Of a stretch of DNA of 24,250 nucleotides, positions 3,074 through 23,300 are shown piece after piece. Both the position numbers and the translations under genes were made by a program. Within the stretch, counting starts at the first letter, position 1; each line of letters opens with the position of its first letter. Source of the DNA: a virus; IMG/VR virus record IMGVR_UViG_3300032163_000754, positions 1 to 24,250 of that record; one strand, written 5' to 3'. The notes beneath the pieces were generated by a model. It saw nothing but the letters and a program-made list of their open reading frames with translations, was not told the origin of the DNA and ran no database searches.

Positions 3074-3928
3074 ATGGGAACTACTGGCTCTAATGTAATC
3101 TTATCGATTGCTCAGACAGCTCAATATGTCCAGGAAGCCTGGACTAGAGACGTACAAGCTCCGTTTGATGCTATTTTGCAAGCCTCCAAGCTGGTCACTG
3201 ACCGCTCTGGTTTGGCTAAAGGTGTAGACACTATCCGTGTACCATTCACTGGTACCGTCAACGCTCGTGCAAAATCTGCTTCATCTGCTGTAACTTACGA
3301 CTCACCCGAAGGCACAGCAATCGCCCACTCAATCAACAAACACTACTACGTCGCTGTTCTAATCGAGGACATCGCTAAGGTCTTATCTAACTACGACCTG
3401 CAAACTGCTTTCCGAGACCGAATGGCAGAGGGCGTAGCCCGCCAAATCGACACTGACTTAATGAGCCTTTACGGTTCAGTAGGTTCAACTGTCACTGGTG
3501 GTGCAGTAATCGACGATGCAGACATCCTGACACTCGTTTACAACTTCGATAATGCCAACACTCCACAAAGCCAACGCCGTGGTATCATCGGTCACAACAC
3601 AAAAAGTGACCTGCTTGCTATCAACAAGTACGTCGCTTACGACCAAACCGGAAAAACCGGCAAAGCCGTTGACGGTGGCACAGGCTTAGTTGGCTCTTTG
3701 TACGGTATGGACCTTTACCACTCTGGTAATGTTCAAACCTCTACAACTGGCCGCAATCTGTTCTTCCACAAATCTGCTCTAGTTCTGGCTCAAGCTCAAC
3801 GACCTAAGTTCGAGATGGAATACTCCGTCGACTATGTTGGTTTAAAAACTGTTCTACACGCAATCTATGGTGTAGGCGTCGAACGAGCATCTAGCTTCCA
3901 GGAGCTTACTCGTACTACTGCTCCTTAG
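3074..3928 (+). CDS. Major capsid protein (HK97-fold type)
   Basis: Probable major capsid protein that forms the icosahedral shell. The 284-residue product fits the size of compact coat proteins without a long processed arm. Recognisable features are an N-terminal helix (residues 1-30), a strand-rich segment with TIRVPFTGTVNARAKSASSA around 53-72, a long acidic helix (AVLIEDIAKVLSNYDLQTAF followed by RDRMAEGVARQIDTDLMSLY) typical of the spine helix, and a C-terminal VGLKTVLHAIYGVGVERASS strand. The 'GRNLFFHKSALVLAQAQRPK' segment near 227-247 is common in the C-terminal part of phage coat proteins. The start is preceded by AAGGAAA. Codon choice is more even and slightly more GC-rich than in neighbours, consistent with high expression. 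Confidence 0.85.
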   Translation: MGTTGSNVILSIAQTAQYVQEAWTRDVQAPFDAILQASKLVTDRSGLAKGVDTIRVPFTGTVNARAKSASSAVTYDSPEGTAIAHSINKHYYVAVLIEDIAKVLSNYDLQTAFRDRMAEGVARQIDTDLMSLYGSVGSTVTGGAVIDDADILTLVYNFDNANTPQSQRRGIIGHNTKSDLLAINKYVAYDQTGKTGKAVDGGTGLVGSLYGMDLYHSGNVQTSTTGRNLFFHKSALVLAQAQRPKFEMEYSVDYVGLKTVLHAIYGVGVERASSFQELTRTTAP

Positions 3929-4308: not shown

Positions 4309-4602
4309 ATGCGTAAAAGCAAACTCACAGCTCAAGAGCTTGAAGAGTCGGAATTAGCTGAACATCAACAACGCCAACAAAGAAATGGCGGATTTTCGAT
4401 TCGTAGTGTTCGTGATAGGGGGTGGGGGCATATTATAGATAAAAAAAGCAATCATAGATGTTCAATTCTTTGGCATGTAGATAATCGTATCCCTGGGGTT
4501 TACTATAGTGGTGTTCCGGCTGGTAGAATTGTACTTGTATCAGACGGTAAAGAAATGGTTTTTAATGTTGATGAACTACAGAAATTGTTGAGATGGGCTT
4601 AA
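4309..4602 (+). CDS. Hypothetical protein opening the glycan cassette
   Basis: A 97-residue protein of unknown function, the first gene after the terminator, with a Shine-Dalgarno-like CTAAGGA before its ATG. Residues 1-25 are a charged, Gln/Glu-rich helix (KLTAQELEESELAEHQQRQQ). The rest appears to be a small beta-rich domain (GWGHIIDKKSNHRCSILWHV, then VYYSGVPAGRIVLVSDGKEM) ending in a short helix. It has one cysteine and no membrane segment. Its last 10 bases overlap the epimerase gene, so it is probably co-translated with the cassette, but a catalytic role cannot be assigned. Confidence 0.65.
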   Translation: MRKSKLTAQELEESELAEHQQRQQRNGGFSIRSVRDRGWGHIIDKKSNHRCSILWHVDNRIPGVYYSGVPAGRIVLVSDGKEMVFNVDELQKLLRWA

Positions 4603-5318
4603 GCAGAATAGTAGTTACCGGACATTTAGGTTTTATAGGAAGCTATTTGATGCCTAAACTACAAAATGCTATAGGGTTAGATATAAAAGAAGGTAACGAC
4701 ATTCTAGACTGCGACTTACCAGATGTTGGTTTAGTCATTCATCTAGCTGCTGAACCTGGGGTGGTTGCCTCAGTAGCCGACCCCTTCAAAAATGCAGAAA
4801 CTAATATTCTAGGAACTATAAGGTTGGCAGAAAGATACAAAAATGCTCAGTTTATTTTTGCAAGTTCCGGTGGTACTATTCAGGAAACCATTGAATCACC
4901 ATACGGATTATCTAAATACGTCTGTGAGGAATATGTAAAAATGCTATGCAACCACCCTACCATCTTAAGATTCCCAAATGTCTACGGTAAGGGTAGTCGT
5001 AGTGTTGTCGACAAGTGGCTAGTAGGAGACGAACTTACTATTTACGGTGATGGACAAACTAAACGAATCTATGGATATGTAGAAGATATTGTTGAGGCAA
5101 TTATTCTTTCTATAGATTGGGATTCTGGCACTTACAAATTGGGTAGTAACCAAGTGTATAGTGTTTTAGAGGTAGCTAAAGCCATAGATAAACCGATAAA
5201 ATTTGCTCCTGCTCGCAAGGGAGAGATAACACATACTAAATCCGTACTCCCGAACACAACCCCTAACTGGATACCCAAAGTAGAACTTATGGATTACATC
5301 TATGGAAAAATTAAATGA
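4593..5318 (+). CDS. NAD-dependent sugar epimerase/dehydratase (extended SDR)
   Basis: Probable nucleotide-sugar epimerase or dehydratase of the extended short-chain dehydrogenase family, expected to act in the cytoplasm on an NDP-sugar that supplies the downstream transferases. Visible motifs are the dinucleotide-binding TGHLGFIGS (residues 9-17), LAAEPG (51-56), the catalytic Ser region FASSGGT (89-95), the YxxxK pair Y104/K108 in SPYGLSK, RFPNVYGKG (126-134) and a substrate-side YGDGQTKRIYGYVED (151-165). At 241 residues it is shorter than typical GalE-type enzymes (about 310-340); the loss appears spread through the first Rossmann half and the C-terminus. All key catalytic residues remain, so it is probably active. 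It overlaps the preceding gene by 10 bases. Confidence 0.85.
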   Translation: MGLSRIVVTGHLGFIGSYLMPKLQNAIGLDIKEGNDILDCDLPDVGLVIHLAAEPGVVASVADPFKNAETNILGTIRLAERYKNAQFIFASSGGTIQETIESPYGLSKYVCEEYVKMLCNHPTILRFPNVYGKGSRSVVDKWLVGDELTIYGDGQTKRIYGYVEDIVEAIILSIDWDSGTYKLGSNQVYSVLEVAKAIDKPIKFAPARKGEITHTKSVLPNTTPNWIPKVELMDYIYGKIK

Positions 5319-5463
5319 ACATCTACAACTTGAATACACGATTGGTTACTTGGTTATGATACTGGCAATTATACCATTATCTCCGGAGTGGAGAGTTATT
5401 TATACTGAAAGAATTGAAGAATTAAAGGAGAAATACAATGCTATCGATAATTATCCCATCTAG
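5302..5463 (+). CDS. Small single-span membrane-type protein
   Basis: A 53-residue reading frame bridges the gap between the epimerase and the GT2 transferase, overlapping the first by 17 bases and the second by 26. The product has a charged N-terminus (MEKLNEHLQLEYT), one hydrophobic stretch (IGYLVMILAIIPL, about residues 14-26) and a charged C-terminal helix (WRVIYTERIEELKEKY). That architecture suggests a membrane anchor or adaptor. The ribosome site is weak (GGA at 5291-5293). Supporting reality, it fills what would otherwise be a gap of about 120 bases in a cassette where other genes abut. It would be the only membrane-type component of the cassette. The hydrophobic run is short, so a buried helix is the alternative. 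Confidence 0.5.
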   Translation: MEKLNEHLQLEYTIGYLVMILAIIPLSPEWRVIYTERIEELKEKYNAIDNYPI

Positions 5464-6421
5464 GGTTGACCAGTATCTAGAGAAAACTATTGAGAGTTTA
5501 CTGAACCAAGCTAGGGGTGAAATTGAGATTATTGTGATTTTAGATGGTTACTGGCCCAAGACGAAACTTGAGGATAGACCCAAACTAACTATTATCCATC
5601 AGGGTGAGCTACATGACAATCTGGGGATGAGGTCTGCCATAAATGCTGGCATGTCTATTGCTAATGGTGAGTATGTTATGAAAGTTGATGAACATGTGCT
5701 TATGGATGAAGGTTTTGATGAAAAATTAAAGTTAGATTGTGAAGATAATTGGGTTGTCGTCCCTCGTCGCTACCGGCTTGACGCCGATAAATGGGAAATT
5801 ATAAATGACGGTCGCCCCCCTGTCGACTACATGTATATCGCTTATCCTTACGAGAGGCCGTTTGACCGCCGTTGTGGCTTATATGGCGGGGGTATAGACA
5901 AACAACGCCATATAAGCCGTTCTGATACAGAAATCGACGACACGATGTCGTGGCAAGGCTCATGCTATTTTATGAAAAAGACTTATTGGGATGAATTGTT
6001 CCCTGACGGGTTAGATAATGATAATTATGGTCCATTTAACGGGGAGGCACAAGAAATCGGCTTCAAGGCTCAGTTAAGTGGGGGTAGAGTAATGGTAAAT
6101 AAGAAAACTTTCTATGCCCACTACCACAAGGGCAAGGATGGCAAGGGGTATGGATTCTCTCGGGAGCAATACAAGCGACACGAAACCTATAAAGAAAAGG
6201 CCCGTATACATATGATGAATTATTGGCTCTTAAATAAATGGTCTTCTCCCCCCAGAATCCACGACTTTAAGTGGTTAATAGACACCTTTAATCCACCTGG
6301 CTGGCCGAAAGACTGGGAGACACGAATACATGAAGACGCTAAAACTGATTGGTCTAGGGACCCGTCAAAGCAACCATCTGGATGGGTCAATTCAGAGGGA
6401 TTACCGGAGTTAGAGATATGA
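5438..6421 (+). CDS. GT2-family glycosyltransferase
   Basis: Probable GT-A fold inverting glycosyltransferase of family GT2, transferring a sugar from a nucleotide donor. The 327-residue product opens with LSIIIPSRVDQYLEKTIESL and VILDG (residues 33-37). The metal/donor motif is V-D84-E-H86 in place of the common DxD, with SWQGSCYFM (171-179), GEAQEIGFK (about 202-210) and a histidine in FYAHYHKG (225-232). The combination of VDEH, WQGS and a late histidine resembles the polypeptide GalNAc-transferase-like branch. The N-terminal domain of the protein starting at 11215 has the same signature (VDAH, LQGSCF, WYAH), so the two are paralogs. A good ribosome site (AAAGGAG) precedes the start. A perfect 13-bp inverted repeat lies inside the gene at 5876-5918. 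Confidence 0.85.
   Translation: MLSIIIPSRVDQYLEKTIESLLNQARGEIEIIVILDGYWPKTKLEDRPKLTIIHQGELHDNLGMRSAINAGMSIANGEYVMKVDEHVLMDEGFDEKLKLDCEDNWVVVPRRYRLDADKWEIINDGRPPVDYMYIAYPYERPFDRRCGLYGGGIDKQRHISRSDTEIDDTMSWQGSCYFMKKTYWDELFPDGLDNDNYGPFNGEAQEIGFKAQLSGGRVMVNKKTFYAHYHKGKDGKGYGFSREQYKRHETYKEKARIHMMNYWLLNKWSSPPRIHDFKWLIDTFNPPGWPKDWETRIHEDAKTDWSRDPSKQPSGWVNSEGLPELEI
5876..5918 (+). repeat. Perfect 13-bp inverted repeat inside the GT2 gene
   Basis: GGCTTATATGGCG (5876-5888) and CGCCATATAAGCC (5906-5918) are exact reverse complements separated by 17 bases. In RNA this gives a stable stem-loop in the middle of the coding sequence, between residues about 147 and 161. It is not followed by a T-run. Confidence 0.9.
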
Positions 6422-6424
6422 GAG

Positions 6425-6997
6425 ATGAACAAGGCCGTTTTATCAATTATGCGTAACCGCACCGAACTCGCCCGCCACTTCGCCTCCCTTGGGTTCAAGA
6501 AAGGAGTAGAGGTTGGATTATGCCACGGGCGCTACTCCAAGATTCTCTATGATAATATCCCAGGATTGGAACTTCTAAGCATAGATGCCTACCGACCCTA
6601 CGGAGGACATGGCATTAACCGCATACAGTCTACCCACGACGCCAATATGATTACCGCCCACGAAGCACTTAAGGACTATCCAAACTTTGTGATGGTGGTG
6701 GCGGACGCCCACGAAACAAGTAGGTGGATAGCTGATGGCTCACTGGACTTCGTATTCATCGACGGCGCCCACGATTACGAAGCTGTTAAACGGGACATCA
6801 TTGACTGGGCACCCAAAGTCAGAAAAGGTGGTATTGTCTCTGGACATGATTACATATGGGGAAAATGGAATAAAATTGGCGTTATACCTGCTGTAAATGA
6901 ATTTACTAAAGAAAACAATTATGAGTTGCTAACTACTGAATATGACCCCAATGCGGAGAGAGACGATAGACAAGAAGATTGGTACTTCGTAAAATGA
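6425..6997 (+). CDS. Class I SAM-dependent methyltransferase (Methyltransf_24-like), copy A
   Basis: Probable S-adenosylmethionine-dependent methyltransferase. The 190-residue product has motif I GVEVGLCHG (27-35), an acidic residue after strand 2 (D54 in LSIDAY), DFVFIDGAHDYEAVKRDI (108-125) and GGIVSGHDY (135-143). The last two segments are characteristic of the Methyltransf_24 group found in glycan and natural-product operons, where O-methylation of a sugar is common. The substrate here is unknown; a sugar made by the neighbouring transferases is the natural candidate. It starts 3 bases after the GT2 stop, and its own TGA overlaps the ATG of the next gene (ATGA). It is clearly paralogous to the protein at 7466. 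Confidence 0.85.
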   Translation: MNKAVLSIMRNRTELARHFASLGFKKGVEVGLCHGRYSKILYDNIPGLELLSIDAYRPYGGHGINRIQSTHDANMITAHEALKDYPNFVMVVADAHETSRWIADGSLDFVFIDGAHDYEAVKRDIIDWAPKVRKGGIVSGHDYIWGKWNKIGVIPAVNEFTKENNYELLTTEYDPNAERDDRQEDWYFVK

Positions 6998-7473
6998 GTG
7001 TTGTTGGCTCGGGCGATATAGCCTCAGTTCTCAAAGACCGACCAGGTTTTATCTGGTTTGCCTCTGGTGTGAGTCATTCTCAGGAGGCAAGAGAGGCAGA
7101 GTATGGTAGAGAGATTGACCTTTTGATGAGTCAGAACAAAGATAAACATCTGGTCTATTTTTCTTCTCTGTCGATATTCTATGCCGAGGGACGGTATCAA
7201 ATACATAAACGTCAGATGGAAGAAATTATTAAATCTAATTGGAAGAAATATACGATTGTAAGGTTGGGAAATATCTCTTGGGGTACTAATTCTAATACAC
7301 TAATCAATTACCTAAAGAACCACCCCGAAGCTGAGATAAGGGATGAATACAGGTTTGTAATAGATAAGGAAGAGTTCCTATGGTGGATAAATCTTGTCCC
7401 TAGTTGGAGTACAGAATTCAATTGCCCGGGTCGCAGATTAAAAGTAAGAGAAATTAAGGAGTTATATGTTTGA
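6994..7473 (+). CDS. Reduced SDR / epimerase-like protein
   Basis: A 159-residue protein related to NAD-dependent epimerases but much shorter. It keeps a glycine-rich start (VVGSGDIASVL, residues 3-13), FASGVSHSQ (22-30), the serine pair in YFSSLSIFY (55-63), Y68-x3-K72 in RYQIHK, and VRLGNISWG (89-97), which corresponds to the epimerase RxxNxYG segment. Most of the first Rossmann half between the glycine loop and FASG is missing. The start at 6994 is preferred because its ATG overlaps the preceding stop (ATGA); an upstream TTG at 6979 is possible. It could be a minimal enzyme or a cofactor-binding partner. The end overlaps the next gene by 8 bases. Confidence 0.65.
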   Translation: MSVVGSGDIASVLKDRPGFIWFASGVSHSQEAREAEYGREIDLLMSQNKDKHLVYFSSLSIFYAEGRYQIHKRQMEEIIKSNWKKYTIVRLGNISWGTNSNTLINYLKNHPEAEIRDEYRFVIDKEEFLWWINLVPSWSTEFNCPGRRLKVREIKELYV

Positions 7474-8101
7474 TGATTATACACTGGTTGAGGGGCACCT
7501 CGGGGTGCAAGAGATACGGGATACCAACCGAGTAGACCTGGCCAAGTTCTTAGCTAAAATCGGCAACACGGGAGTAGAGGTGGGGGTCGCTCATGGCAAA
7601 TACTCTAAGATATTGATGGACGCCAACCCCAACCTAACCCTTTACGGAGTCGACCCCTACGAAGTCTACGAAGGGTATAAGGACTACCAGCTCCAAAGAA
7701 CCTTTGAGGCTCTACAAGCCGACGCCCACACTAGATTAGACCAATACCCTAACTATCACTTTGTAAGAAAGACCTCTATGGACGCCCTAAAAGACTTTGA
7801 GGACGGCAGACTGGACTGGGTCTACATTGACGGCAATCACTCCGACCCCTGGGTAATGCAGGATATTACAGAGTGGGCAAAGAAAGTTCGTAAGGGTGGA
7901 GTGGTTTCGGGACATGACTACGCCCGCATCGATGGGGGCGAGCACACTGGCGAGAACCGCTACGCTGTTGTTCAATCTGTAAACAAGTACGTTGCCGACA
8001 ATCACATCCAACTGTACGTTTGGGGATTAAATTCTAAAGCTGATAAATCTTTAAAGCGAGACAATCACAGGAGTTGGATGTTCTTCCAACCGGAGCAATA
8101 A
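7466..8101 (+). CDS. Class I SAM-dependent methyltransferase (Methyltransf_24-like), copy B
   Basis: Second methyltransferase of the cassette, 211 residues. Motif I is GVEVGVAHG (36-44), the strand-2 acid is D63 in YGVDPY, then DWVYIDGNH (117-125) and VRKGGVVSGHDY (141-152). These line up segment by segment with the copy starting at 6425, while the N-terminal 20 residues and the C-terminus (ending in RSWMFFQPEQ) differ. Two related but diverged copies suggest two methylation positions or substrates instead of a recent duplication. AAGGAG lies four bases before the start codon. The stop codon abuts the next start directly. Confidence 0.85.
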   Translation: MFDDYTLVEGHLGVQEIRDTNRVDLAKFLAKIGNTGVEVGVAHGKYSKILMDANPNLTLYGVDPYEVYEGYKDYQLQRTFEALQADAHTRLDQYPNYHFVRKTSMDALKDFEDGRLDWVYIDGNHSDPWVMQDITEWAKKVRKGGVVSGHDYARIDGGEHTGENRYAVVQSVNKYVADNHIQLYVWGLNSKADKSLKRDNHRSWMFFQPEQ

Positions 8102-8758
8102 ATGAAAGTAGCAGTCCTATCAACATCGTTGGGCAGTTTCGACCAGCACGTTAAGCACACAAGTCAAACGGTCAAGGCTGACTACTTTACTTTTACAGAT
8201 GATAATTACCCTCCCAGGAAGAACTCAATGTCCCCCCGGCTACAGGCTAAAATACCCAAAATGTTTGGTTGGCAGATGAAGCCAGGATACGACTTCTATG
8301 TATGGCTTGACGGTAACCTCAGCCTGAAAAGCCCAGACGGAGTTAAATATCTTATGGATAAGGACTATGATGTGGTTGTCCTTAAACACCCCGACCGAGA
8401 CACCGTATGGTGGGAGTACCGCTATAACTGGCGTGGTCTAAACAATAATGCTCCCTCCAATTATCTTACCGAGAGATATACGGGGGAGTGGCTAGACGAA
8501 CAAATAAAGGTCATCAAAGATGATAAGGACTATGTGGACGATTATATGGTCAACGGTGGGGTTTTTATGTACCGCAACACCCCGAAGGTTCACGAAATGC
8601 TAAAAGAGTGGTTCTATCACGTCTCTAGGTACTGCATATCTGACCAGATGAGCTGGGCTTATGTTCTTAAGAAAAGTGGTCTGAGAGTTAAAATCTTACC
8701 GGATGATTACCGAGATTGCGATTGGTTGAAAGTGGAAAGACATAAAAAACACGGATGA
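8102..8758 (+). CDS. TOD1/MUCI70 (DUF616)-like glycosyltransferase, copy A
   Basis: Probable glycosyltransferase of the TOD1/MUCI70 group (former DUF616), 218 residues. Recognisable points are YFTFTDDNYPP (28-38), SPRLQAKIPKMFGWQMKPGY (44-63), the putative donor/metal site VWLDGNLSL (67-75), NGGVFMYRN (151-159) and the late SDQMSWAY (180-187). In characterised relatives the group is linked to polysaccharide or glycan synthesis; the donor and acceptor here are unknown. No membrane segment is present, so it acts in the host cytoplasm. A GGAG lies six bases before the ATG, which follows the previous stop with no gap. It overlaps the next gene by 4 bases. Confidence 0.75.
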   Translation: MKVAVLSTSLGSFDQHVKHTSQTVKADYFTFTDDNYPPRKNSMSPRLQAKIPKMFGWQMKPGYDFYVWLDGNLSLKSPDGVKYLMDKDYDVVVLKHPDRDTVWWEYRYNWRGLNNNAPSNYLTERYTGEWLDEQIKVIKDDKDYVDDYMVNGGVFMYRNTPKVHEMLKEWFYHVSRYCISDQMSWAYVLKKSGLRVKILPDDYRDCDWLKVERHKKHG

Positions 8759-9369
8759 AAACTTTAATACACACTGCTAATTTCGGGAGATTCGATAAAC
8801 CCCAGAACCACGCCAATCAGTCGGCAGATTACTGGTGTGCTACAGAGAAGGAACTACCAGCCCGTATGAAAGCCATGACGCCTCGCCTCCAGGCTAGGAT
8901 AGTCAAAACTCACGCTTGGCAACTCAAGCCTGGGTACGACTTCTATCTTTGGGTAGACAGTTCTACAAACCTAGTTCGGACTGATTCACTCAGGTGGTTC
9001 ATAGAACAACTCGGAGACAAAGATATGGCAGTTTTCCGACATAACCGTCGTAAGACCATTCAGGAAGAAGCCGATTATCTTAAGCACCGCCTAAAGATAA
9101 ATTGCCCTTATATTACACCCCGATACGAGGGAGAGGATATAGACGGTCAGATGGCAGAAGTCGACCCCAGCGGACAGCTGTTCGCCTCTACAGTCTTTAT
9201 ATACCGCCCCACAACAGAGGTCAAAGAAGCATTAAAGGCTTGGTGGGTCGCTATAGCCCGTTTTCACTCCATAGACCAATTATCCCTAACCGAAGCCATA
9301 AAGGGCGTGTCGCAAAATGTTATCGATGAGGATTACCTGAAATGTAAATATCTGGAGCACAACAGATGA
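8755..9369 (+). CDS. TOD1/MUCI70 (DUF616)-like glycosyltransferase, copy B
   Basis: Paralog of the preceding gene, 204 residues, sharing the opening xANFGRFD / xTSLGSFD segment, MTPRLQARIVKTHAWQLKPG (41-60), YLWVDSSTNL (64-73) in place of VWLDGNLSL, FIYRPTTEVKEALKAWW and the late SIDQLSL (172-178). The Asp of the putative metal site is kept (D68) but the following Gly-Asn is replaced by Ser-Ser, so donor choice may differ. It starts by ATGA overlap with copy A and ends by ATGA overlap with the next gene. Confidence 0.72.
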   Translation: MKTLIHTANFGRFDKPQNHANQSADYWCATEKELPARMKAMTPRLQARIVKTHAWQLKPGYDFYLWVDSSTNLVRTDSLRWFIEQLGDKDMAVFRHNRRKTIQEEADYLKHRLKINCPYITPRYEGEDIDGQMAEVDPSGQLFASTVFIYRPTTEVKEALKAWWVAIARFHSIDQLSLTEAIKGVSQNVIDEDYLKCKYLEHNR

Positions 9370-9977
9370 TTAACGTGTATAGCATAGTTTACAATGAGGA
9401 GTTCATGCTCCCCCACTTCCTGAAGCACTACGAGCAGTTTGCTAATAAAATCTTCATTATAGACGACCACTCTACCGATAAGACGGCTGAGATAGCCAAA
9501 GCCCACCCCATGGTAGAGTATTCCCTGTACGGGTTTGAGGGGTTAAACGAGGATGAATTCAATGATACCTTCTACTCGTTTTATAAGAATAACCCTAGTG
9601 ATTGGGCGGTGGTAGTGGATTGTGATGAATTCGTTACAGGATTGGACAAATTAGTCACAAGCGAGGTTGTTCTTAAGACAACTGGATATATGATGGTTGG
9701 TTTAACTGGTCAGCTAGAAGACTGTAAACAGGTAAGAATGAGTACGTTCGACAAACCTATAGTGTTCAACCCTAAGCTAGATGTAAAGTTAGGGGATGGT
9801 CGGCATACTGTGAACCTACCCACTGTAGAATCAGGTCTTGAACTATTACATTACAAATACCCATCCAGAGAATACTACCTACAACGAAGCCTAGACACCT
9901 ACCCTAGAATAATGAACGCTAGAGATATGGCTTATAGAATTAAGAGAGGGTTGAGATATTATGACCGACACATCTGA
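9366..9977 (+). CDS. Glyco_tranf_2_4-like glycosyltransferase
   Basis: Probable GT-A glycosyltransferase of the Glyco_tranf_2_4 / GT92-like group, 203 residues. Typical features are YSIVYNEEFMLPHFLKHY (5-22), IFIIDDHSTDKT (29-40), the DxD-containing VVVDCDEFV (82-90) and LLHYKYPSREYYLQR (160-174). The order and spacing of these motifs are standard for the group. It is somewhat short at the C-terminus, where the gene overlaps the next one by 17 bases. Start by ATGA overlap. The acceptor is unknown. Confidence 0.8.
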   Translation: MINVYSIVYNEEFMLPHFLKHYEQFANKIFIIDDHSTDKTAEIAKAHPMVEYSLYGFEGLNEDEFNDTFYSFYKNNPSDWAVVVDCDEFVTGLDKLVTSEVVLKTTGYMMVGLTGQLEDCKQVRMSTFDKPIVFNPKLDVKLGDGRHTVNLPTVESGLELLHYKYPSREYYLQRSLDTYPRIMNARDMAYRIKRGLRYYDRHI

Positions 9978-10617
9978 TTTGACTTCGGTCATGTACACCG
10001 CCCGAACTATCTCCGATAAGTTTGCCAATAATACGATGGGGCAACTCAAAGAAGCATTGGGAGACATACCCCTTATTATTGTGGAACTGGATGGTAGCAC
10101 GCCCAGTCACTTTAACATCTACCGCATGGCACTTAGGGGAGCAAAACAAGCCACCACTAAGTACATCGCTTGCGTTGAAGATGACCAGCTCTACAGTCCC
10201 GAACATTTCAAATACCGCCCCCGCAAAACCCCCTTTGCCTACAATCTAGGGTATTGGGGACTTTACACTTGGCAAGACCCACCCATCTATAACTACAAAG
10301 GTCGGAAGAACCTAGGCAATTTAATTTGTGAGCGAGAGGCTTTTATCGAAGCGATGGAGGAACGCTTTGCTAAGTACCCCAACCCCGGAGGAGAACACCT
10401 AAAAGATATATGGGCTGAACCTTCACGATATGAGAGGCAATTAGGAGTCCAGATACAGGAGGCGGAAGATTTTTATAGTCAACCCCCGAACATAAAGTTC
10501 TCCCACCAGACTGAACTATCGTTTGAAGGTTTGGGAACACGCAAACGAGCTGGTGAACTAAGGGCGTTAGAGATTCCATTCTGGGGAAAAGCGAGCGATG
10601 TTAAAAAACTCTATTGA
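9961..10617 (+). CDS. 'EDD' family putative glycosyltransferase, copy A
   Basis: A 218-residue protein with a GT-A-like plan: an N-terminal alternating strand/helix part containing VMYTARTIS and IIVELDG, then YIACVEDDQLYSPEHF (68-83), in which E73-D74-D75 would be the metal site, followed by FAYNLGYWGLYTWQDPP and a segment LICEREAFIEAMEERF. The same order occurs in the next gene and in the C-terminal half of the protein starting at 11215. The last of these has AEHDVLYPPEHF, a pattern I associate with phage-encoded family 2-like transferases. Donor and acceptor cannot be told. The start overlaps the preceding gene by 17 bases, and the end overlaps the next by 20. Confidence 0.65.
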   Translation: MTDTSDLTSVMYTARTISDKFANNTMGQLKEALGDIPLIIVELDGSTPSHFNIYRMALRGAKQATTKYIACVEDDQLYSPEHFKYRPRKTPFAYNLGYWGLYTWQDPPIYNYKGRKNLGNLICEREAFIEAMEERFAKYPNPGGEHLKDIWAEPSRYERQLGVQIQEAEDFYSQPPNIKFSHQTELSFEGLGTRKRAGELRALEIPFWGKASDVKKLY

Positions 10618-11218
10618 TTTGACTATAGTTTACTCTAGTGCGCACAAAGTTCCTGAAGCATTTAGACAGCGGGTATTTGATAAGCTCAAGGAGTCGGCAA
10701 AAGATTATCCTATAGTTGAGCTTCATGCGACACCCGAAGCCAGCTCGATAACAAATTACTATAAGGAGTTGCTGGAAGTATGCAGAACCATAACTACCCC
10801 TTATGTGGCGTTTGCGGAAGATGACGCTTTAATGCCAGATGAACATTTTAATCAACGTCCCTCCAATCTCCAGACTTTCGCCTACAACTCCAATAGGTGG
10901 AATCTTTATACTTGGTCTGAACCCCCGTTCTTTTCCCTTAGACAGCGCAAGATACTAGCCACCCTGATAGCCCCCAGGGAAGAGTTTATCCGAATCATGG
11001 AAGAACGATTGACTAATCCCGACGAGAGTAAGATGGTTGAGCCTGGTCGTCGCAAAAACGAAAAGTTTGAAACCTTTGAAACCTATAACCCAGTAGTTGT
11101 CTTCACCCACCCTAATGCCTTTGGTTATATGGGAGGCGATAAACGAGCCAGTAGAATAAGAGCTCTTGAAATACCATACTTTGGAACAGCCAAAGAGGTG
11201 GTAAAATTATACCAATGA
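10598..11218 (+). CDS. 'EDD' family putative glycosyltransferase, copy B
   Basis: Paralog of the preceding gene, 206 residues. Shared segments are DLTIVYSSA near the start, YVAFAEDDALMPDEHF (69-84) with E74-D75-D76, FAYNSNRWNLYTWSEPP, LIAPREEFIRIMEERL, and a common C-terminus (RASRIRALEIPYFGTAKEVVKLY against RAGELRALEIPFWGKASDVKKLY). The C-terminal similarity is higher than the N-terminal one, which suggests duplication followed by divergence of the donor or acceptor side. It starts inside copy A and ends by ATGA overlap with the fusion transferase. Confidence 0.65.
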   Translation: MLKNSIDLTIVYSSAHKVPEAFRQRVFDKLKESAKDYPIVELHATPEASSITNYYKELLEVCRTITTPYVAFAEDDALMPDEHFNQRPSNLQTFAYNSNRWNLYTWSEPPFFSLRQRKILATLIAPREEFIRIMEERLTNPDESKMVEPGRRKNEKFETFETYNPVVVFTHPNAFGYMGGDKRASRIRALEIPYFGTAKEVVKLYQ

Positions 11219-12843
11219 AATTATCAATAATTGTCCCTGCCCGCAACGAAGAATGGTTGTCTAAGACAGTAGAAGACCTGCTTGAGAATATAGAAGACGA
11301 GACAGAGATTCTAGTTGGGTTAGACGGTTATATGCCTGAGATTAGCGTACCAGAAGACCCCAGAGTAAGAGTCCACCATGTAGACGAATCTATAGGACAA
11401 CGGGCTATGCAAAATAGATTGGCGGAGATGAGTACCGCTAAATACGTGATGAAAGTTGACGCCCACTGTGCGTTTGATAAAGGTTTTGATAAAAAGATGA
11501 TAGATAGAATGGAAGACGACATCACAATGGTTCCCGTTATGCGCAATCTCCATGTTTTCGATTGGGTATGTCAGTACTGTAAGATGCGTTCTTATCAAGG
11601 ACCTATGCCCGAACAGTGTAGAAATGAAGAGTGTGCCAATGTAGAACAGAAGTTTGAGAAGGAAGTAACCTGGATAGCCAAGAAGAATCCTCAATCCTCT
11701 GCCTATAGATTTAATAAGAAATTAAGATTCAAATATTTCCCCGAACTTAGACAAAAACTGCCTAGGGAGGGTCTACAGGAATCAATGAGTCTACAGGGAA
11801 GTTGCTTTATGTGTACCCGTGAGAAATACTGGTCGCTGAAACTATGTGATGAATCGTGGGGTTCATGGGGTCAGCAAGGTTCGGAAGTAGCTCTTAAGAC
11901 TTGGCTATCTGGTGGGCGGGTGATGTGTAATTTCGATACTTGGTATGCCCATCTATTTAGGACACAACATGGGTTTAGTTTCCCCTACCTCCAGTCAGGT
12001 AAATCTCAGGATAAAGCCAGAAAGATATGTATGGACCTATTCTTAAATGACAAGTGGAATAAAGCCGTCTACCCACTATCGTGGTTGTTAGATAAGTTCT
12101 GGTTCGCCCTTAAGGATGTACATGACAACGAGGAGATGTGGACAGAAGCCAGTGTCAAGGGCGCCCAGTCACAAAGAAAGTTGGGCTTTACAAAAGGTAT
12201 TTTATATTTTACCGATAACGAACTCCCCCTTAAAATAGCCAAGAATGTCCAAGGCAGGATAAGGAAAATAGCCAAAGACAAAGACATGGAATTGGTTTCC
12301 TCAACTCGAAAACCGATGGGGAATATGGGAAAGAACGTAGTCACCGATATGCCACGTTCATATCTCTGTATGTTCCATCAGATTTTGAAGGGGTTGGAGA
12401 CGATGGAATCAGATATAGTCTTTATGGCGGAACATGATGTCCTTTATCCACCCGAACATTTTGACTTCACCCCTACCGAACACAAGTTTTATTACGATAT
12501 TAACTGGTACAAGGTTCACTCCGACGGTGTGGTAGTACACTGGGAAGCCGACCAGGTGAGTGGACTTTGTGCCTTTAGGGAAGACCTATTAGAGTTCTAC
12601 CGTAAGCGTGTGGCTGAGTTCGACCCAGAAAACTTTGATAGAAAGTTCGAGCCATTATCGGGCGAAGGCTCTGAACAGTGGAAAGCCCCCGTCGCTTATA
12701 TTGATATTCGTACTGGCAGGAATCTTACGTACAACAAGAAAAAAATTGAACACTTCCGCAAACGTGATACCGCCGTAAATTTTGAATCTACAACTATAGA
12801 TAAGATACCTGGTTGGAGTTTATCTCTGAACGACATATACTGA
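11215..12843 (+). CDS. Two-domain glycosyltransferase: GT2 fused to an 'EHD' transferase domain
   Basis: A 542-residue fusion. Residues 1 to about 300 form a GT2 domain (LSIIVPARNEEWLSKTVEDL at 3-22, VGLDG at 34-38, VDAH at 81-84, LQGSCFMC at 193-200, WYAH at 243-246), paralogous to the protein starting at 5438. Inserted after the VDAH region is a cysteine cluster C119-x2-C122-x12-C135-x4-C140 that looks like a zinc knuckle and is absent from that paralog. Residues about 320-542 form a second domain with IVFMAEHDVLYPPEHF (401-416), GLCAFREDLLEFY and a C-terminal basic stretch. It is related to the two single-domain proteins upstream. The fusion probably adds two sugars in succession. It ends the tightly packed cassette; the next start is 32 bases on. 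Confidence 0.82.
   Translation: MKLSIIVPARNEEWLSKTVEDLLENIEDETEILVGLDGYMPEISVPEDPRVRVHHVDESIGQRAMQNRLAEMSTAKYVMKVDAHCAFDKGFDKKMIDRMEDDITMVPVMRNLHVFDWVCQYCKMRSYQGPMPEQCRNEECANVEQKFEKEVTWIAKKNPQSSAYRFNKKLRFKYFPELRQKLPREGLQESMSLQGSCFMCTREKYWSLKLCDESWGSWGQQGSEVALKTWLSGGRVMCNFDTWYAHLFRTQHGFSFPYLQSGKSQDKARKICMDLFLNDKWNKAVYPLSWLLDKFWFALKDVHDNEEMWTEASVKGAQSQRKLGFTKGILYFTDNELPLKIAKNVQGRIRKIAKDKDMELVSSTRKPMGNMGKNVVTDMPRSYLCMFHQILKGLETMESDIVFMAEHDVLYPPEHFDFTPTEHKFYYDINWYKVHSDGVVVHWEADQVSGLCAFREDLLEFYRKRVAEFDPENFDRKFEPLSGEGSEQWKAPVAYIDIRTGRNLTYNKKKIEHFRKRDTAVNFESTTIDKIPGWSLSLNDIY
12813..12841 (+). promoter_or_regulatory. Possible sigma70 promoter for the first Ser-Pro fibre gene
   Basis: TTGGAG (12813-12818) and TATACT (12836-12841) are separated by 17 bases, inside the end of the fusion transferase gene and 35 bases before the fibre ATG. 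The -35 match is only three of six, so this is tentative. Confidence 0.35.
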
Positions 12844-12875: not shown

Positions 12876-14237
12876 ATGGCAATTGGTTTAACGTCTTTAA
12901 CTGTAAATGGTTCTGATACCAATGCTTCGTCTTATGCTACAGCGTCAATAACTCCGACTGCCGACCAAACAACACTAGCCGCAATCCACTATTTTGGCGA
13001 CCTGACCACCGCGCCTACTTGTACTGGTAATGGCTTAACTTGGACTCAAGTTAGGCGAGTTACCGATGGGGGTAGCACCAGTTACGGCTACAGTGTTTTT
13101 AGGGCTTCTGGTAGTGCGCCCTCTACGGGGGCTGTGACTTTCGATTTCGGTTCACAGGCTATGTTGGGTTCTATTTGGCAAGTCATTACGGTATCGGGTT
13201 CAGATGTCCACACCACCGATGGTGTGGTGCAGTCGGTCAGCGACACAACCACCGCCGACACACTGACTGTCACTCTCGGTGCATTTGCCTCAACCAATAA
13301 CGGAACTATCGGGTTCTTCGGTGCGGTAGACACAGCCAATGCCACGATGACCTTTACTCCTGGTTCTGGCTTTACAACCCTCTCCAACAACGGTGTAACT
13401 GCTGACTCGACCAAAATAAACATGACCGTCGAGTCCAAGACTACCAATGACACCACGGTTGATGGTACTTATCAGTCCAACAATGACAGGATGTTTGCCG
13501 TCGGTATCGAGATAAATGCGTCAGGTACATCTACTAGCCCATCTCTATCTCCATCGAGTTCCGTCTCTAGGAGTCTTAGTCCCTCGTCATCGGTTTCACC
13601 GAGCTCTTCGGTTAGTCCTAGCGCTAGCGTTTCTCGAAGTTTATCCCCCTCCTCAAGTGTTTCCCCGAGCGCTTCTGCCAGCCCCTCGCTTAGCCCGAGT
13701 AGCTCTGTCTCACCGAGCGCCTCTGTTAGCCCATCCCTTTCTCCAAGCTCCAGTGTTTCCCCCTCAGCCTCGGTCTCTCGCTCACTTTCCCCGTCGAGTT
13801 CTGTTTCACCCTCCAGTTCAGTCAGTGCCAGTCTTTCACCATCAGCCTCGGTTTCTCTCTCCCCTAGCCCTTCCGCTTCTGCTAGTCCGAGTCTCTCCCC
13901 CTCGGCCAGCGTCAGCCTATCGCTAAGTCCCTCTGCCAGTATCAGTTCCTCCCTCAGTCCATCTGCGAGTGTATCTGCGAGTGTTTCCCCCTCCCCCTCT
14001 CTAGAGATTCACGGACGGATAGATTACATAATAGGCGTTAAACAAATAGATTCTATTGTCGCCAAAAAATATCTCGACCCGTTAGTTATCGCCAAAAGTC
14101 CAATTACCCATATAATCGCTACTAAGAAAATCGACGAATTAGTGGTCGCTAAACCCGACACTGATGAACTAACGGGCACTAAGAAAATAGACACATTAAA
14201 TATAGTCGATAGCCCAACAGTTGATATTAGTAATTAG
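12876..14237 (+). CDS. Fibre/adhesin with Ser-Pro repeat stalk
   Basis: A 453-residue probable fibre or appendage protein in three parts. Residues 1-217 look like a beta-sandwich domain, Thr/Ser/Gly-rich with alternating strands, similar in style to jelly-roll domains of phage appendages. Residues 219-375 are a low-complexity stalk built of SPSxSVSPS-type units with occasional Arg or Leu. Residues 377-453 are a different, beta-type repeat of about nine residues with the pattern xIDxIVxAK (QIDSIVAK, YLDPLVIAK, KIDELVVAK, KIDTLNIV). No signal peptide is visible, as expected for a virion protein. A mucin-like, O-glycosylated stalk between an N-terminal domain and a C-terminal repeat is inferred from composition and from the adjacent transferases. 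Which end binds the virion is not known. Confidence 0.75.
   Translation: MAIGLTSLTVNGSDTNASSYATASITPTADQTTLAAIHYFGDLTTAPTCTGNGLTWTQVRRVTDGGSTSYGYSVFRASGSAPSTGAVTFDFGSQAMLGSIWQVITVSGSDVHTTDGVVQSVSDTTTADTLTVTLGAFASTNNGTIGFFGAVDTANATMTFTPGSGFTTLSNNGVTADSTKINMTVESKTTNDTTVDGTYQSNNDRMFAVGIEINASGTSTSPSLSPSSSVSRSLSPSSSVSPSSSVSPSASVSRSLSPSSSVSPSASASPSLSPSSSVSPSASVSPSLSPSSSVSPSASVSRSLSPSSSVSPSSSVSASLSPSASVSLSPSPSASASPSLSPSASVSLSLSPSASISSSLSPSASVSASVSPSPSLEIHGRIDYIIGVKQIDSIVAKKYLDPLVIAKSPITHIIATKKIDELVVAKPDTDELTGTKKIDTLNIVDSPTVDISN
13530..14000 (+). repeat. Ser-Pro coding repeat, first fibre
   Basis: Encodes residues 219-375, made of short units such as [14 protein letters not shown]. All six serine codons are mixed throughout, so the repeat is obvious as protein but blurred as DNA. 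This points to selection on the peptide and against homologous DNA repeats, or to old amplification. Confidence 0.9.
14008..14234 (+). repeat. C-terminal nine-residue repeat, first fibre
   Basis: Residues from about 379 to 452 show aspartate (or Thr/Asp) positions spaced 9 or 10 residues apart, in units resembling xIDxIVxAK. About eight degenerate units are visible. The periodicity suggests a small beta-solenoid or a stacked beta module. Confidence 0.6.
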
Positions 14238-14249
14238 GTTTGATATAAT
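14221..14249 (+). promoter_or_regulatory. Strong sigma70-type promoter with extended -10
   Basis: TTGATA (14221-14226), a 17-base spacer and a consensus TATAAT (14244-14249), preceded by TG one base upstream (extended -10). The -35 element lies within the last codons of the fibre gene. It should drive the HNH gene whose ATG is 23 bases downstream, and perhaps the BppU-like gene after it. A palindrome ATTCGAAT (14248-14255) overlaps the likely start site. Confidence 0.75.
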
Positions 14250-14271
14250 TCGAATATAAGGAAAAACAAAA

Positions 14272-14709
14272 ATGGCAAAGATTGAAGAATTGAAACAGAG
14301 ACTTATGTCCAGCTTTACAAAAACTGGAGATTGTTGGAACTGGGATAAAGCATTAAACACTTGTGGTTATGGACAGACGACATATCAGAACAAGCCATAC
14401 CGTGCCCACCGTTTAATGTATGAGTTATTTGTAGGAGAAATTCCTAAAGACTTAGAACTAGACCATTTATGCAACAACAGAAAGTGTGTCAATCCTAGCC
14501 ACCTAGAGCCAGTAACTAGAAGAGATAATATGCTGAGGAGTTCCATAACATTCGCTGGCATTAACCACAGAAAAACTCATTGTGTCAACGGACACGAATT
14601 CAATGAAGAGAATACCTATCGGCGGAAGGATAGGAACAATAGAGAGTGCAGAAAATGTCGTTATCAGGCGTACCTCAACTTTAAGAATCGGAGATTAGCG
14701 TGGCAGTAA
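14272..14709 (+). CDS. HNH homing-type endonuclease with C-terminal zinc site
   Basis: A 145-residue free-standing HNH endonuclease. The HNH core is AHRLMYELFVGEIP with H46, LDHLCNN with D64-H65-C67, and C72, N74 and H77 in CVNPSHLEPVTRRDNM, which is the HNH_3 pattern. A second zinc site is C104/H108 with C126/C129 (HCVNGHEF...ECRKCR), common in phage HNH proteins. It would cleave DNA at or near homing sites and promote its own spread. The gene has its own promoter and an AAGGAAAAACAAAA ribosome leader. Its 3' end overlaps the GTG start of the next gene by 10 bases, so it is well settled in the gene order. Confidence 0.88.
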   Translation: MAKIEELKQRLMSSFTKTGDCWNWDKALNTCGYGQTTYQNKPYRAHRLMYELFVGEIPKDLELDHLCNNRKCVNPSHLEPVTRRDNMLRSSITFAGINHRKTHCVNGHEFNEENTYRRKDRNNRECRKCRYQAYLNFKNRRLAWQ

Positions 14710-15059
14710 GGAAGGGTAAACCAATCCGCGATGTTATCAGAGGAGACACCAGGCGAGTGTCGTGCACTTTTTATGACGAGGACGGGACTACTCTCTTGAA
14801 TCTAGCTGGCGGTACGGTTTATTTCACAGTCAATGCCTCCGGTGACCCGAGCGACGATACGGGAGTTTCTATCCAAAAGTCCGCTACTTCATTTACGGAC
14901 GCCGCCAATGGCAACCATATCTTCACACTCACCCACTCCGATACCAATATAGACGCTGGGGATTATTGGTATGATAGTCAGTTCAAGGATTCGGTTGGTA
15001 ACTATCTATCGGCTTATCGTGGAACATTCCAGATTCAATCGGATATTACTAGGACTTGA
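14700..15059 (+). CDS. BppU-like Ig-fold baseplate/fibre protein
   Basis: A 119-residue beta-rich protein resembling the N-terminal domain of baseplate upper proteins (BppU_N type). It has RGDTRRVSCTFYDEDGTTLL near the N-terminus, GGTVYFTVNAS, FTLTHSDTNIDAGDYWYDSQ and YRGTFQIQSDI at the end, which give a typical seven-strand sandwich. It probably attaches fibres or forms part of the tail periphery. The start is GTG at 14700, inside the HNH gene, with a GGAGA-like ribosome site about seven bases upstream. The assignment is by fold pattern only; a capsid-attached Ig protein is the alternative. Confidence 0.55.
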   Translation: MAVRKGKPIRDVIRGDTRRVSCTFYDEDGTTLLNLAGGTVYFTVNASGDPSDDTGVSIQKSATSFTDAANGNHIFTLTHSDTNIDAGDYWYDSQFKDSVGNYLSAYRGTFQIQSDITRT

Positions 15060-15085
15060 TTTTTAATAAACTATGATACTATAGA
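15056..15085 (+). promoter_or_regulatory. Probable promoter for the second Ser-Pro fibre gene
   Basis: TTGATT (15056-15061) precedes either TACTAT (15077-15082, with TG one base upstream, 15-base spacer) or TATAGA (15080-15085, 18-base spacer). The leader that follows (AATATAAAAGGATAAAACAAA) closely resembles the leader of the HNH gene at 14272. Confidence 0.5.
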
Positions 15086-15110
15086 AATATAAAAGGATAA
15101 AACAAAAAAA

Positions 15111-16067
15111 ATGGCTTTTCAAAATAATTCCAACAATGCTCCCGTAACTGATACTGACTGGTCTATCCAGGCTCTTAAAACCATGACCTTTACTGGCGGT
15201 GATAGTGCTGGTGCTGTTGGTACAGCTACTTTATTTACGGTTACTGGGTCTGTCTTGATGCGTTTATTTGGCAGGGTGGTTACGGCCCCCGGTGCTGCTT
15301 CGGCTTCGTTATCCCCGTCTGCTTCGACTTCAACCTCGTCCAGTGCATCCCCTTCCGCATCGGCTTCGGCCAGTTTGAGTCCTTCTAGTTCAGTTTCCCC
15401 AAGCGCATCAGAATCCGTATCTACCTCCGCATCACTCTCCCCAAGTTCGTCTCGTTCGGCTTCAGTATCACCGTCAGCTAGTGTTTCGGTAAGCCCAAGC
15501 TCTAGCCGTTCTCCATCAGCTAGCACATCTATCAGCCCATCATCAAGTGTCTCACCCAGTTCCTCAGTTTCGCCCAGTGCCAGTGCGTCTGGGTCACTAT
15601 CACCAAGTTCCAGTGCCTCGGCCTCGGTCTCGCCCAGTTCCAGCGCCTCTCGTTCTCTTAGCCCATCAGCTTCAGCAAGTTCAAGTGCTTCCGGCTCATT
15701 GTCTCCATCAACTTCGGTATCTCCATCAGCTTCGGGAAGCGTCTCGGTTTCTCTCTCTCTATCGCCTTCCGCGTCTGTATCAGCTTCGCAGTCGGCTGGC
15801 AACGCTGGTCAAATCGCTGTTGGTACGACCGCTAACCCAACCGGACTACTCGCTACTACTTCATCATTCCTATTAGCCGCCAAAGAAATATGGCACGATG
15901 CTACACCTGACTCTACAGTCGAACTTTCGTCCGTATTAACCCAAAAAGTTGTTACTGATGATGTTATCCAGACCGTTTCAGTTGAGTCAGTTAGTTCTGG
16001 TGTAATTGATTATTACTGTATGTGGTATCCATTAAGTTCAGATAGTTCGGTAAAAGCGACTGCATAA
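15111..16067 (+). CDS. Fibre/virion protein with a Ser-Pro repeat inserted in a globular domain
   Basis: A 318-residue protein. Residues 1-62 ([20 protein letters not shown], then [20 protein letters not shown]) and residues 230-318 ([60 protein letters not shown]) look like two halves of one phage beta-sandwich domain of about 150 residues. Between them, residues 64-229 are a Ser-rich repeat built of SPSxSxSxS units, with Ser at nearly every second position. The repeat thus appears to be looped out of a folded domain, not attached at an end. It may be displayed on the virion surface and, like the first fibre, glycosylated. The gene has its own probable promoter, and its stop overlaps the next HNH start (TAATG). 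Confidence 0.72.
15300..15797 (+). repeat. Ser-Pro coding repeat, second fibre
   Basis: Encodes residues 64-229 of the second fibre. Units are irregular ([23 protein letters not shown]), with all six serine codons in use. There is no long exact DNA repeat. Long reading frames on the other strand and in other frames here are by-products of the biased composition. Confidence 0.9.
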
Positions 16068-16672
16068 TGAAAAAAGACTGCAAATACTGTAACGGGGGCT
16101 TTGCGAAACCAGAGAACTGTAGTGTGCTTCAATGGGAGAACAGACGTAAGTTTTGCTCCCGTGACTGTGCTAATAAAGCTATGTCTATTTTTAGGCAGTG
16201 TATTGACTGTGGGACGGAGCGTCGTAGTCGGACTAAATGGACATTTTGTTCTAGAACTTGTAGAGCCAGTTGGGATAGGATGAATAGCGGTAGAGTTATC
16301 GACTGTCTGAATTGCAAAATAGCTTTCACGAGGAATGGTGTTAAAAACAAGTACTGTTCCTTAAAGTGTGCCAAATTATTTCAAAGAGGCAGTGGTCACT
16401 GGAACTGGCGAGGTGGAGCTAAAGTACTATCCAGCAGAATCAGAAAATCAGCCCAGTATAGCGACTGGCGCATGGCCGTATTAAAAAGAGACAACTTTAC
16501 CTGCCAAGACTGCGGTATTCGTGGTGGCAGACTTCATGCAGACCACATCAAACAGTTCGCCCTGTACCCTGACTTACGATTTGAAATAACTAACGGCAGG
16601 ACGCTGTGTGTGCCTTGCCACGTAAAAACACCCACCTATAGTCGCAAGGTTGGCTCGCTGGTAGTCGCGTAG
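16067..16672 (+). CDS. HNH endonuclease with three tandem CxxC zinc knuckles
   Basis: A 201-residue protein. Three repeated cysteine modules come first: C5-C8 with C30-C34, C45-C48 with C61-C65, and C80-C83 with C97-C101, each of the form CxxC, about 12-21 residues, then CxxxC. A basic linker (ILSSRIRKS-like) follows, then the HNH core: RDNFTCQDCG with C146/C149, LHADHI with H157-D159-H160, N176 in ITNGRTL, and CVPCH (181-185). The three knuckles probably bind DNA and set target specificity. The start overlaps the preceding fibre stop by one base (TAATG). It is a different HNH subfamily from the genes at 14272 and 22821, so the three arrived separately. Confidence 0.88.
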   Translation: MKKDCKYCNGGFAKPENCSVLQWENRRKFCSRDCANKAMSIFRQCIDCGTERRSRTKWTFCSRTCRASWDRMNSGRVIDCLNCKIAFTRNGVKNKYCSLKCAKLFQRGSGHWNWRGGAKVLSSRIRKSAQYSDWRMAVLKRDNFTCQDCGIRGGRLHADHIKQFALYPDLRFEITNGRTLCVPCHVKTPTYSRKVGSLVVA

Positions 16673-22820: not shown

Positions 22821-23300
22821 ATGAAGCGAATCCCCCAATATAGCAACTACTCCGCAACTACCGATGGGCGAGTTTGGACACATAACCTGCGTCCTGGCTG
22901 GCTAACTCAGGGTATAGACAAGAATGGATATGTTAGATATGACCTTGCGGGAGACAACGGTAAGAGAAAAGGATTATATGCCCATCAGGCCGTTGCTCTT
23001 ACTTATATCCCCAATCCAGATAACAAGCCCCATGTTAACCATCTTGACCATAATAAAGCTAATAACTCGATAGAAAATCTTGTGTGGTGTACTCATCTAG
23101 AGAATATCCGACACGATTGGGCAACGGGTAATCGGACGAGACATTTCGGCAATAGTGCAAAAATAAATACTAGTATTGCTCGTCGGATTCGTATTCTACA
23201 CGGAAAGGGATTAACCCAGGTTGAGTTGTCTAAAAAATTCGGTATCAGCCAACCGACAATAAGCCAAATAATTCTTCGCAAGACTTGGAGCACCGCATGA
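22821..23300 (+). CDS. NUMOD4 / HNH homing endonuclease with C-terminal HTH
   Basis: A 159-residue homing endonuclease with a standard domain order. NUMOD4 covers residues 3-48 (IPQYSNYSATTDGRVW). The HNH_3 core spans about 52-98 (AHQAVALTYIPNPDNKPHVN with H55, HLDHNKANN with H74-D76-H77, and ENLVWCTHLENIRHDW). A helix-turn-helix follows at about 129-153 (KGLTQVELSKKFGISQPTIS), which would recognise the target. The HTH resembles resolvase/repressor-type three-helix units. It has its own promoter in the end of the giant gene and a GGCAAAACAAAC leader. Its TGA overlaps the adaptor ATG, and its last codons hold the adaptor's ribosome site, so loss of the HNH gene would affect adaptor translation. 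Confidence 0.9.
   Translation: MKRIPQYSNYSATTDGRVWTHNLRPGWLTQGIDKNGYVRYDLAGDNGKRKGLYAHQAVALTYIPNPDNKPHVNHLDHNKANNSIENLVWCTHLENIRHDWATGNRTRHFGNSAKINTSIARRIRILHGKGLTQVELSKKFGISQPTISQIILRKTWSTA

Follow-up and report, generated by a model that had tools for sequence, protein, structure and literature searches.

Serine-rich repeat glycoproteins (SRRPs) of Gram-positive bacteria, among them Fap1, GspB, PsrP and the SRRP of L. reuteri, have two to ten glycosyltransferase genes clustered alongside them (PMC6973325) and are described as being glycosylated intracellularly (PMC7948813). Among phages, the available account of the mycobacteriophages Che8 and Rita describes sugar on structural proteins together with phage-encoded glycosyltransferases (Freeman et al. 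2023, as cited in PMC11256854), Ig (immunoglobulin)-like trimeric cement proteins sit as trimers on the outer surface of capsids (PMC9698820), and the T4 protein Hoc is described as forming long protrusions on the capsid surface (PMC10385173). Here we analyse the whole of the IMG/VR virus record IMGVR_UViG_3300032163_000754, a fragment of 24,250 bases (hereafter the window) from a phage akin to viruses of the minute Patescibacteria, in which two proteins, P1 (12876-14237) and P2 (15111-16067), each contain a long serine-rich stalk and lie downstream of a glycosyltransferase cassette (4593-12843). We think it probable that the stalks are dense O-glycan acceptors for this cassette, so that they would be bristles on virion proteins, encoded by the phage and probably O-glycosylated.

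Both stalks are strict (Ser-x)n repeats of two residues, in which serine alternates with a position x filled by P, S, A, V, L, R, T or G. An earlier note on this DNA had described two serine-rich stalks of about 157 and 166 residues in a 'Ser-Pro' pattern; we find 157 residues in stalk 1 (13530-14000, inside P1) and 165 in stalk 2 (15300-15794, inside P2), in a strict Ser-x rather than Ser-Pro register. The window resembles the SRRP systems in its serine-rich low-complexity regions (88 and 92 serines in strict register) and in its glycosyltransferase cluster, which holds at least five such enzymes by Pfam in addition to the A2 family, recognised by fold. It differs from them in having no GtfA or GtfB match (NCBIfam, Pfam) among the cassette proteins scanned, no SecA2, SecY2 or Asp genes among the genes scanned of this fragmentary record, and virion-protein-like P1 and P2 in place of proteins with a long signal peptide and an LPXTG anchor; neither protein has a hydrophobic N-terminus or an LPxTG motif. 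Its enzymes, which are GT2, TOD1-like and unnamed GT-A families accompanied by methyltransferases, are also unlike those of the SecA2/Y2-glycosyltransferase clusters. The phage system would work like the SRRP clusters without being a member of them, as neither GtfA/GtfB nor the anchor was found.

Like the glycosylated mycobacteriophages, the window encodes glycosyltransferases, whilst in the cited account the glycans of Che8 and Rita are described on major capsid proteins and no dedicated serine stalk is described. P2 shares its position in the head-gene region with the Ig-like trimeric cement proteins (KHP30, Pam1, GP4 gp1, BPP-1 and epsilon15; PMC9698820), and its predicted fold is moderately similar to theirs, but it has a 165-residue serine stalk in a loop, and stalk-free homologues of it exist (L008/L122). 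The likeness to T4 Hoc lies in long capsid-surface protrusions, seen for Hoc and presumed for P2; Hoc strings together folded Ig-like domains, unlike the disordered (Ser-x)n arm of P1 and P2. A search of the open literature, with most subscription journals outside its reach, returned no description of (Ser-x)n stalks in phages or Patescibacteria.

Linkage of stalks to the cassette and selection on the peptide

Stalks and cassette occur together far more often than in controls. Of the relatives, L018, L004, L005 and L012 possess the same cassette, each with two or more stalk genes, and L008, whose P2 homologue is stalk-free, has neither cassette nor stalk. To sample from the cassette side, A2 served as the query for viral contigs and A1 as that for species genomes; neither of these cassette families contains a stalk. 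A stalk was present in 55 of 69 viral loci (36/40 when at least 15 kb long) and in 22 of 34 loci from metagenome-assembled genomes (MAGs; 15/19 when at least 15 kb); three of the eight misses in these longer loci were two with weaker S/T-rich runs (L078, L087) and one in which a stalk begins at the very edge of the contig (L098). Sampling from the stalk side used a pattern biased to SPSAS and counted records of at least 20 kb: an A1-type glycosyltransferase was found in 21 of 26 such viral records, 18 of them at E<=1e-60, against 1 of 26 stalk-free controls (P=1.3e-8), and A2 was found in 21 of all 48 records. The P2 domain without its stalk was used to choose 28 control records, of which two had both elements, one had the cassette only, none had a stalk only and 25 had neither (Fisher P=0.008); an earlier locus-level table of stalk and cassette gave P=0.0056.

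Selection on the stalk was measured in a trio of homologous stalks (L221/L228/L295), which come from phages other than the window and open like the stalk of the L013/L014 neck-like protein. The ratio of nonsynonymous to synonymous substitution (dN/dS, omega) was 0.05-0.08, and 20-25 serine codons had changed with no amino-acid change at 66-67 serine positions and no switch between AGY and TCN codons. DNA divergence in the stalk was about that of its upstream sequence, with a single 6-nucleotide gap. The low dN/dS and the codon changes that leave every serine in place are direct evidence that in these relatives strong purifying selection acts on the peptide rather than on the DNA, which bears out the earlier note's proposal of selection for the peptide, in a related trio rather than in the window itself. 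The nearest relatives of the window stalks are far diverged, yet the order of their x residues is conserved: that of stalk 2 scores z 6-8 against L005, L018 and L025. It also scores z 5.5 against the window's own P1, therefore part of this conservation reflects a shared motif grammar.

In the mechanism we propose, the cassette enzymes, in which hydropathy detected no membrane segment, would glycosylate the stalk serines in the cytoplasm, P2 would take its place on the capsid in the manner of an Ig-like cement protein, its stalk exiting from a loop, P1 would be mounted as a second stalk-bearing virion protein, and the particle would thereby gain a bristle or sugar coat. On this reading the stalk serines would bear sugar, P2 would attach to the surface of the capsid with its loop facing outward and P1 would be a virion protein; the benefit may be shielding, stability, or attachment to or mimicry of the host surface. 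The earlier suggestion of a dense O-glycan acceptor gains indirect support from the tight two-way linkage to the glycosyltransferase cassette, whilst the glycosylation itself is presumptive.

Architecture of the stalk proteins and the cassette

Neither P1 nor P2 has a Pfam or PHROGs match. P1 begins with a 217-residue domain (12876-13526) of no assigned fold, with homologues only in L018 and L016/L017; by eye it had appeared homologous to the host stalk proteins described below, which was not supported. The stalk (157-159 residues at 13527-14003 with its borders; the parts of P1 and P2, the capsid gene, the cassette genes and the phrog_1084 homologue below are all on the plus strand) is followed by a C-terminal region of short D-x-I-x-x-x-K-like repeats (IDYIIGVKQIDSIVAKK..., 14004-14234), and similar tails come after the stalks in L018, L005 and L020-L022. 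NCBIfam matches of P1 to Sdr adhesins were far below cut-off, consistent with low complexity, and this identification was rejected.

The AlphaFold model of P2 is a beta-sandwich, in which most domain blocks have a predicted local distance difference test (pLDDT) score of 84-97 and the N-terminal 20 residues 72-79. Its first part (15111-15290) contributes strands at residues 19-27, 37-45 and 48-61, the stalk (15291-15797, 165-169 residues) is modelled as a disordered stretch at about residues 62-230, and the remainder (15798-16064) completes the domain, whose predicted fold resembles the cement proteins of KHP30, Pam1 and KHP40. These capsid or cement chains led the structural alignment (Z 9.4, 9.2 and 8.7, respectively). 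The stalk is thus an insertion within a folded domain, located in the same loop in L004, L005, L018/L009 and L025 and absent from L008, whereas the P2-like proteins of L006, L007, L010-L012 and L015 carry it at the C-terminus. In L122 and L008 only ~2-3 kb separate the capsid gene from the P2 homologue downstream; the window has the cassette in between, and the distance there is 11 kb. Across the loci, stalks were met in several settings: a cement-like loop, C-terminal ends, proteins resembling fibres, the neck-like protein of another phage, and proteins encoded on host chromosomes. This variety of contexts supports in kind the earlier idea of a transferable module. A stalk with the same opening is found in L013, L014, L221, L228, L231 and L295, short contigs with no cassette; in L013/L014 it sits C-terminally in a protein that resembles neck or sheath-completion proteins and belongs to another phage group. 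The longest stalks met had 2,319 residues (L118:12508-19464) and 1,369 residues (L100:13395-17501).

The cassette occupies the interval between the major capsid protein gene (3074-3928, phrog_267, E 5.5e-24) and P1, and consists of ten genes and a small conserved protein. It opens with an NAD-dependent epimerase/dehydratase (4593-5318, PF01370, E 1.3e-23), a GT2 glycosyltransferase (5438-6421, PF00535, E 3.9e-13) and an S-adenosylmethionine (SAM) methyltransferase of the Methyltransf_24 family (6425-6997, PF13578, E 1.5e-14), followed by the small protein (6979-7473), which has no Pfam match and is 49-63% identical in L018, L004, L005 and L012. A second Methyltransf_24 SAM methyltransferase (7466-8101, PF13578, E 2.6e-18) precedes two TOD1/MUCI70 glycosyltransferase-like proteins (8102-8758, PF04765, E 3.3e-9; 8755-9369, PF04765, E 7.2e-6) and a GT2-like glycosyltransferase (9366-9977, PF13704, E 3.6e-13). 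Two A2-family proteins (9961-10617 and 10598-11218) and the A1 protein (11215-12843), with a GT2 domain (PF00535, E 3.1e-10) and a C-terminal A2-like domain, complete the set. The first A2 protein has no Pfam match; its model (pLDDT 95.4) matches the GT-A enzymes SpsA, WrtF and the PBCV-1 capsid glycosyltransferase in Foldseek, and on this prediction the A2 family has a GT-A fold. The cassettes of L004 and L012 also encode a reversibly-glycosylated-polypeptide-like protein (L004:3298-4182, by PF03214; L012:11998-12876, by homology to it). PF03214 is a family known for UDP-arabinopyranose mutases, and TOD1/MUCI70-like enzymes are otherwise known from plants; the presence of the two side by side hints at arabinose.

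Two unrelated genes separate stalk 1 from stalk 2 and fall inside the range 13530-15797 given by the earlier note. One (14272-14709) is of HNH type and has a homologue in L012 (49% identical); two further HNH-type genes, all three being recognised by eye from their motif, stand among the structural genes at 16067-16672 and 22821-23300. The other (14700-15059) is a phrog_1084 homologue, identified with PHROGs, and is a neighbour in the relative L018 as well. On the minus strand, a 227-residue open frame at 15119-15802 runs antisense to stalk 2; it arises from the codon pattern of the stalk and is probably not a gene. The window DNA had no relative in the phage collection.

Patescibacteria islands and competing explanations

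The species-genome collection yielded 34 relatives of A1, every one of them in a MAG and 33 under Patescibacteria names; some of these 34 loci are short contigs and may be phage. Two host sequences carry the cassette with a giant stalk protein as a chromosomal island, namely G001, a 916 kb chromosome (L215/L216), and G002, a 240 kb contig (L217/L218). On a reading of the sequences, the flanks of both islands contain housekeeping-like genes and no recognised phage structural gene, and the genes upstream encode a transposase-like protein with a C-terminal SH3-like part and a membrane protein of ~200 residues. Homologues of these upstream genes were found in L094, L100, L104, L110 and L112, and of the membrane protein also in L118, and in no viral locus. 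The host stalk proteins show no obvious signal peptide by eye, and a phage origin of the islands is conceivable. In a set of 287 Patescibacteria genomes, four had the cassette and all four carried the dipeptide repeat, including the top three by count; the pattern used also matches Thr-Pro linkers and so is not specific to serine stalks, and the other repeat-bearing genomes, among those listed, had mostly Thr-Pro linkers. Because the same cassette-stalk pair forms a chromosomal island in Patescibacteria, we tentatively suggest, at rather less than even probability, a phage counterpart of the bacterial serine-rich-repeat islands, in which a multi-enzyme cassette and (Ser-x)n stalks insertable into various virion proteins, cement loops included, are exchanged as a pair between phage and Patescibacteria, the phage wearing a host-like sugar coat.

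Several observations weigh against glycosylated bristles. The linkage loci are partly redundant and related by ancestry rather than independent, so that the P-values given above overstate the association. Stalks without a cassette enzyme were found in the 44 kb record of L016 (G349) and in G333, G334, G338 and G363 (20-41 kb), the neck-like stalk proteins lie on short contigs where no cassette enzyme was found, and cassettes without a nearby stalk occur in L027, L059, L188, L094, L099 and L107; host enzymes could serve the stalks in records that have no cassette. P2 matches the cement proteins with moderate strength (Foldseek E 0.79, and Z ~9 where 7-8 can be noise), and a siphophage baseplate-tail chain at Z 8.5 ties with them. 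The stalks could instead be unmodified flexible spacers or entropic brushes, the neighbouring sugar cassette having some other target, which would suit both the records without a cassette and the disordered, low-complexity nature of the stalk 2 insertion. A spacer would not need serine at every second position, however, yet no serine was replaced at 66-67 positions whilst 20-25 of their codons changed; nor would a spacer predict a linkage to the cassette in both directions, and we regard this explanation as unlikely.

DNA and host glycans are frequent substrates of phage glycosyltransferases, and the cassette might accordingly modify bases of the phage DNA or else a polymer on the host surface (in superinfection exclusion or seroconversion), the linkage to stalks being hitch-hiking in the structural region. 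Hypermodified pyrimidines usually need a homologue of thymidylate synthase/dCMP-hydroxymethylase (PF00303), which exceeded the cut-off in none of the 27 phage records of the cassette set, and DNA hypermodification by the cassette was discarded on this ground. A DNA or host-polymer target gains some support from the O-antigen nucleotide-sugar genes that Patescibacteria phages carry, which have been read as auxiliary metabolic genes (PMC12911398). Against it stand the lack of a membrane anchor in the cassette enzymes and the two host genomes in which this cassette terminates in a stalk gene and no phage structural genes were recognised alongside; we consider a DNA or host-polymer target less likely still than the spacer.

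Codon choice in the stalks

The earlier note had also remarked on the use of all six serine codons with little exact DNA repetition, which is the case: stalk 1 has TCT18 TCC16 TCA10 TCG10 AGT20 AGC14 and stalk 2 TCT15 TCC13 TCA21 TCG19 AGT15 AGC9, the longest exact repeats are 14 nucleotides (P1) and 12 nucleotides (P2), and Tandem Repeats Finder returned one weak array only (15562-15649, period 30, 70% matches). It had attributed the scrambling partly to avoidance of recombination or slippage between DNA repeats, and the codon-permutation test that it named speaks against this. When codons were shuffled 5,000 times among positions of the same amino acid, the longest repeat was 12.8 +/- 2.0 in P1 and 12.2 +/- 1.8 in P2, and exact 12-mer pairs numbered 4 against 2.6 permuted (P1) and 1 against 1.7 (P2); codon order is no different from random, and exact repeats in the window stalks are neither rarer nor commoner than chance. 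In a non-redundant set of 115 related stalks, each 80 residues long or more, exact 12-mer pairs were above chance in 60% (P<=0.05) and below it in none, with a longest exact repeat of 134 nucleotides. This enrichment suggests that DNA duplication lengthened many of the stalks, with the window pair lying at the fully randomised end.

Unusual codon choice was likewise ruled out, as serine codon use in the stalks is near that of other window genes (chi-squared P=0.15 for P1; P=0.026, a mild departure, for P2) and AGY codons account for a share of 0.341 of the serines in stalks and of 0.342 in ordinary genes from the same loci. What favours selection against repeats is an avoidance of the same codon box (AGY/AGY or TCN/TCN) in adjacent Ser-Ser pairs, with 4 against 11 expected in P2 (P=0.0024), 6 against 9.3 in P1 (P=0.09) and 920 against 1073 over the 115 stalks. 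This persisted with parity controlled (z -5.6 in stalks, z -0.2 in ordinary genes), and 36 of 52 loci fell below expectation and 16 above (P=0.008). Given the random frequency of exact repeats in the window, their enrichment and never depletion among the related stalks, and the equal AGY share, selection against DNA repeats is nonetheless a very improbable cause of the scrambling; the scrambled codons are ordinary synonymous drift under peptide selection.

The stalks offer a test case for the evolution of low-complexity sequence, in which codons drift randomly under strong selection on the peptide. If the stalks are glycosylated bristles, the glycosylation of these virions would be built in and encoded by genes, with an acceptor peptide that can be recognised, and sugar-coated phages could be detected by sequence alone. 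It would also give a concrete role, as coat, shield or means of attachment, to a glycosyltransferase set that the mostly uncultured Patescibacteria share with their phages; genes of this sort in the phages are otherwise interpreted as auxiliary metabolism.

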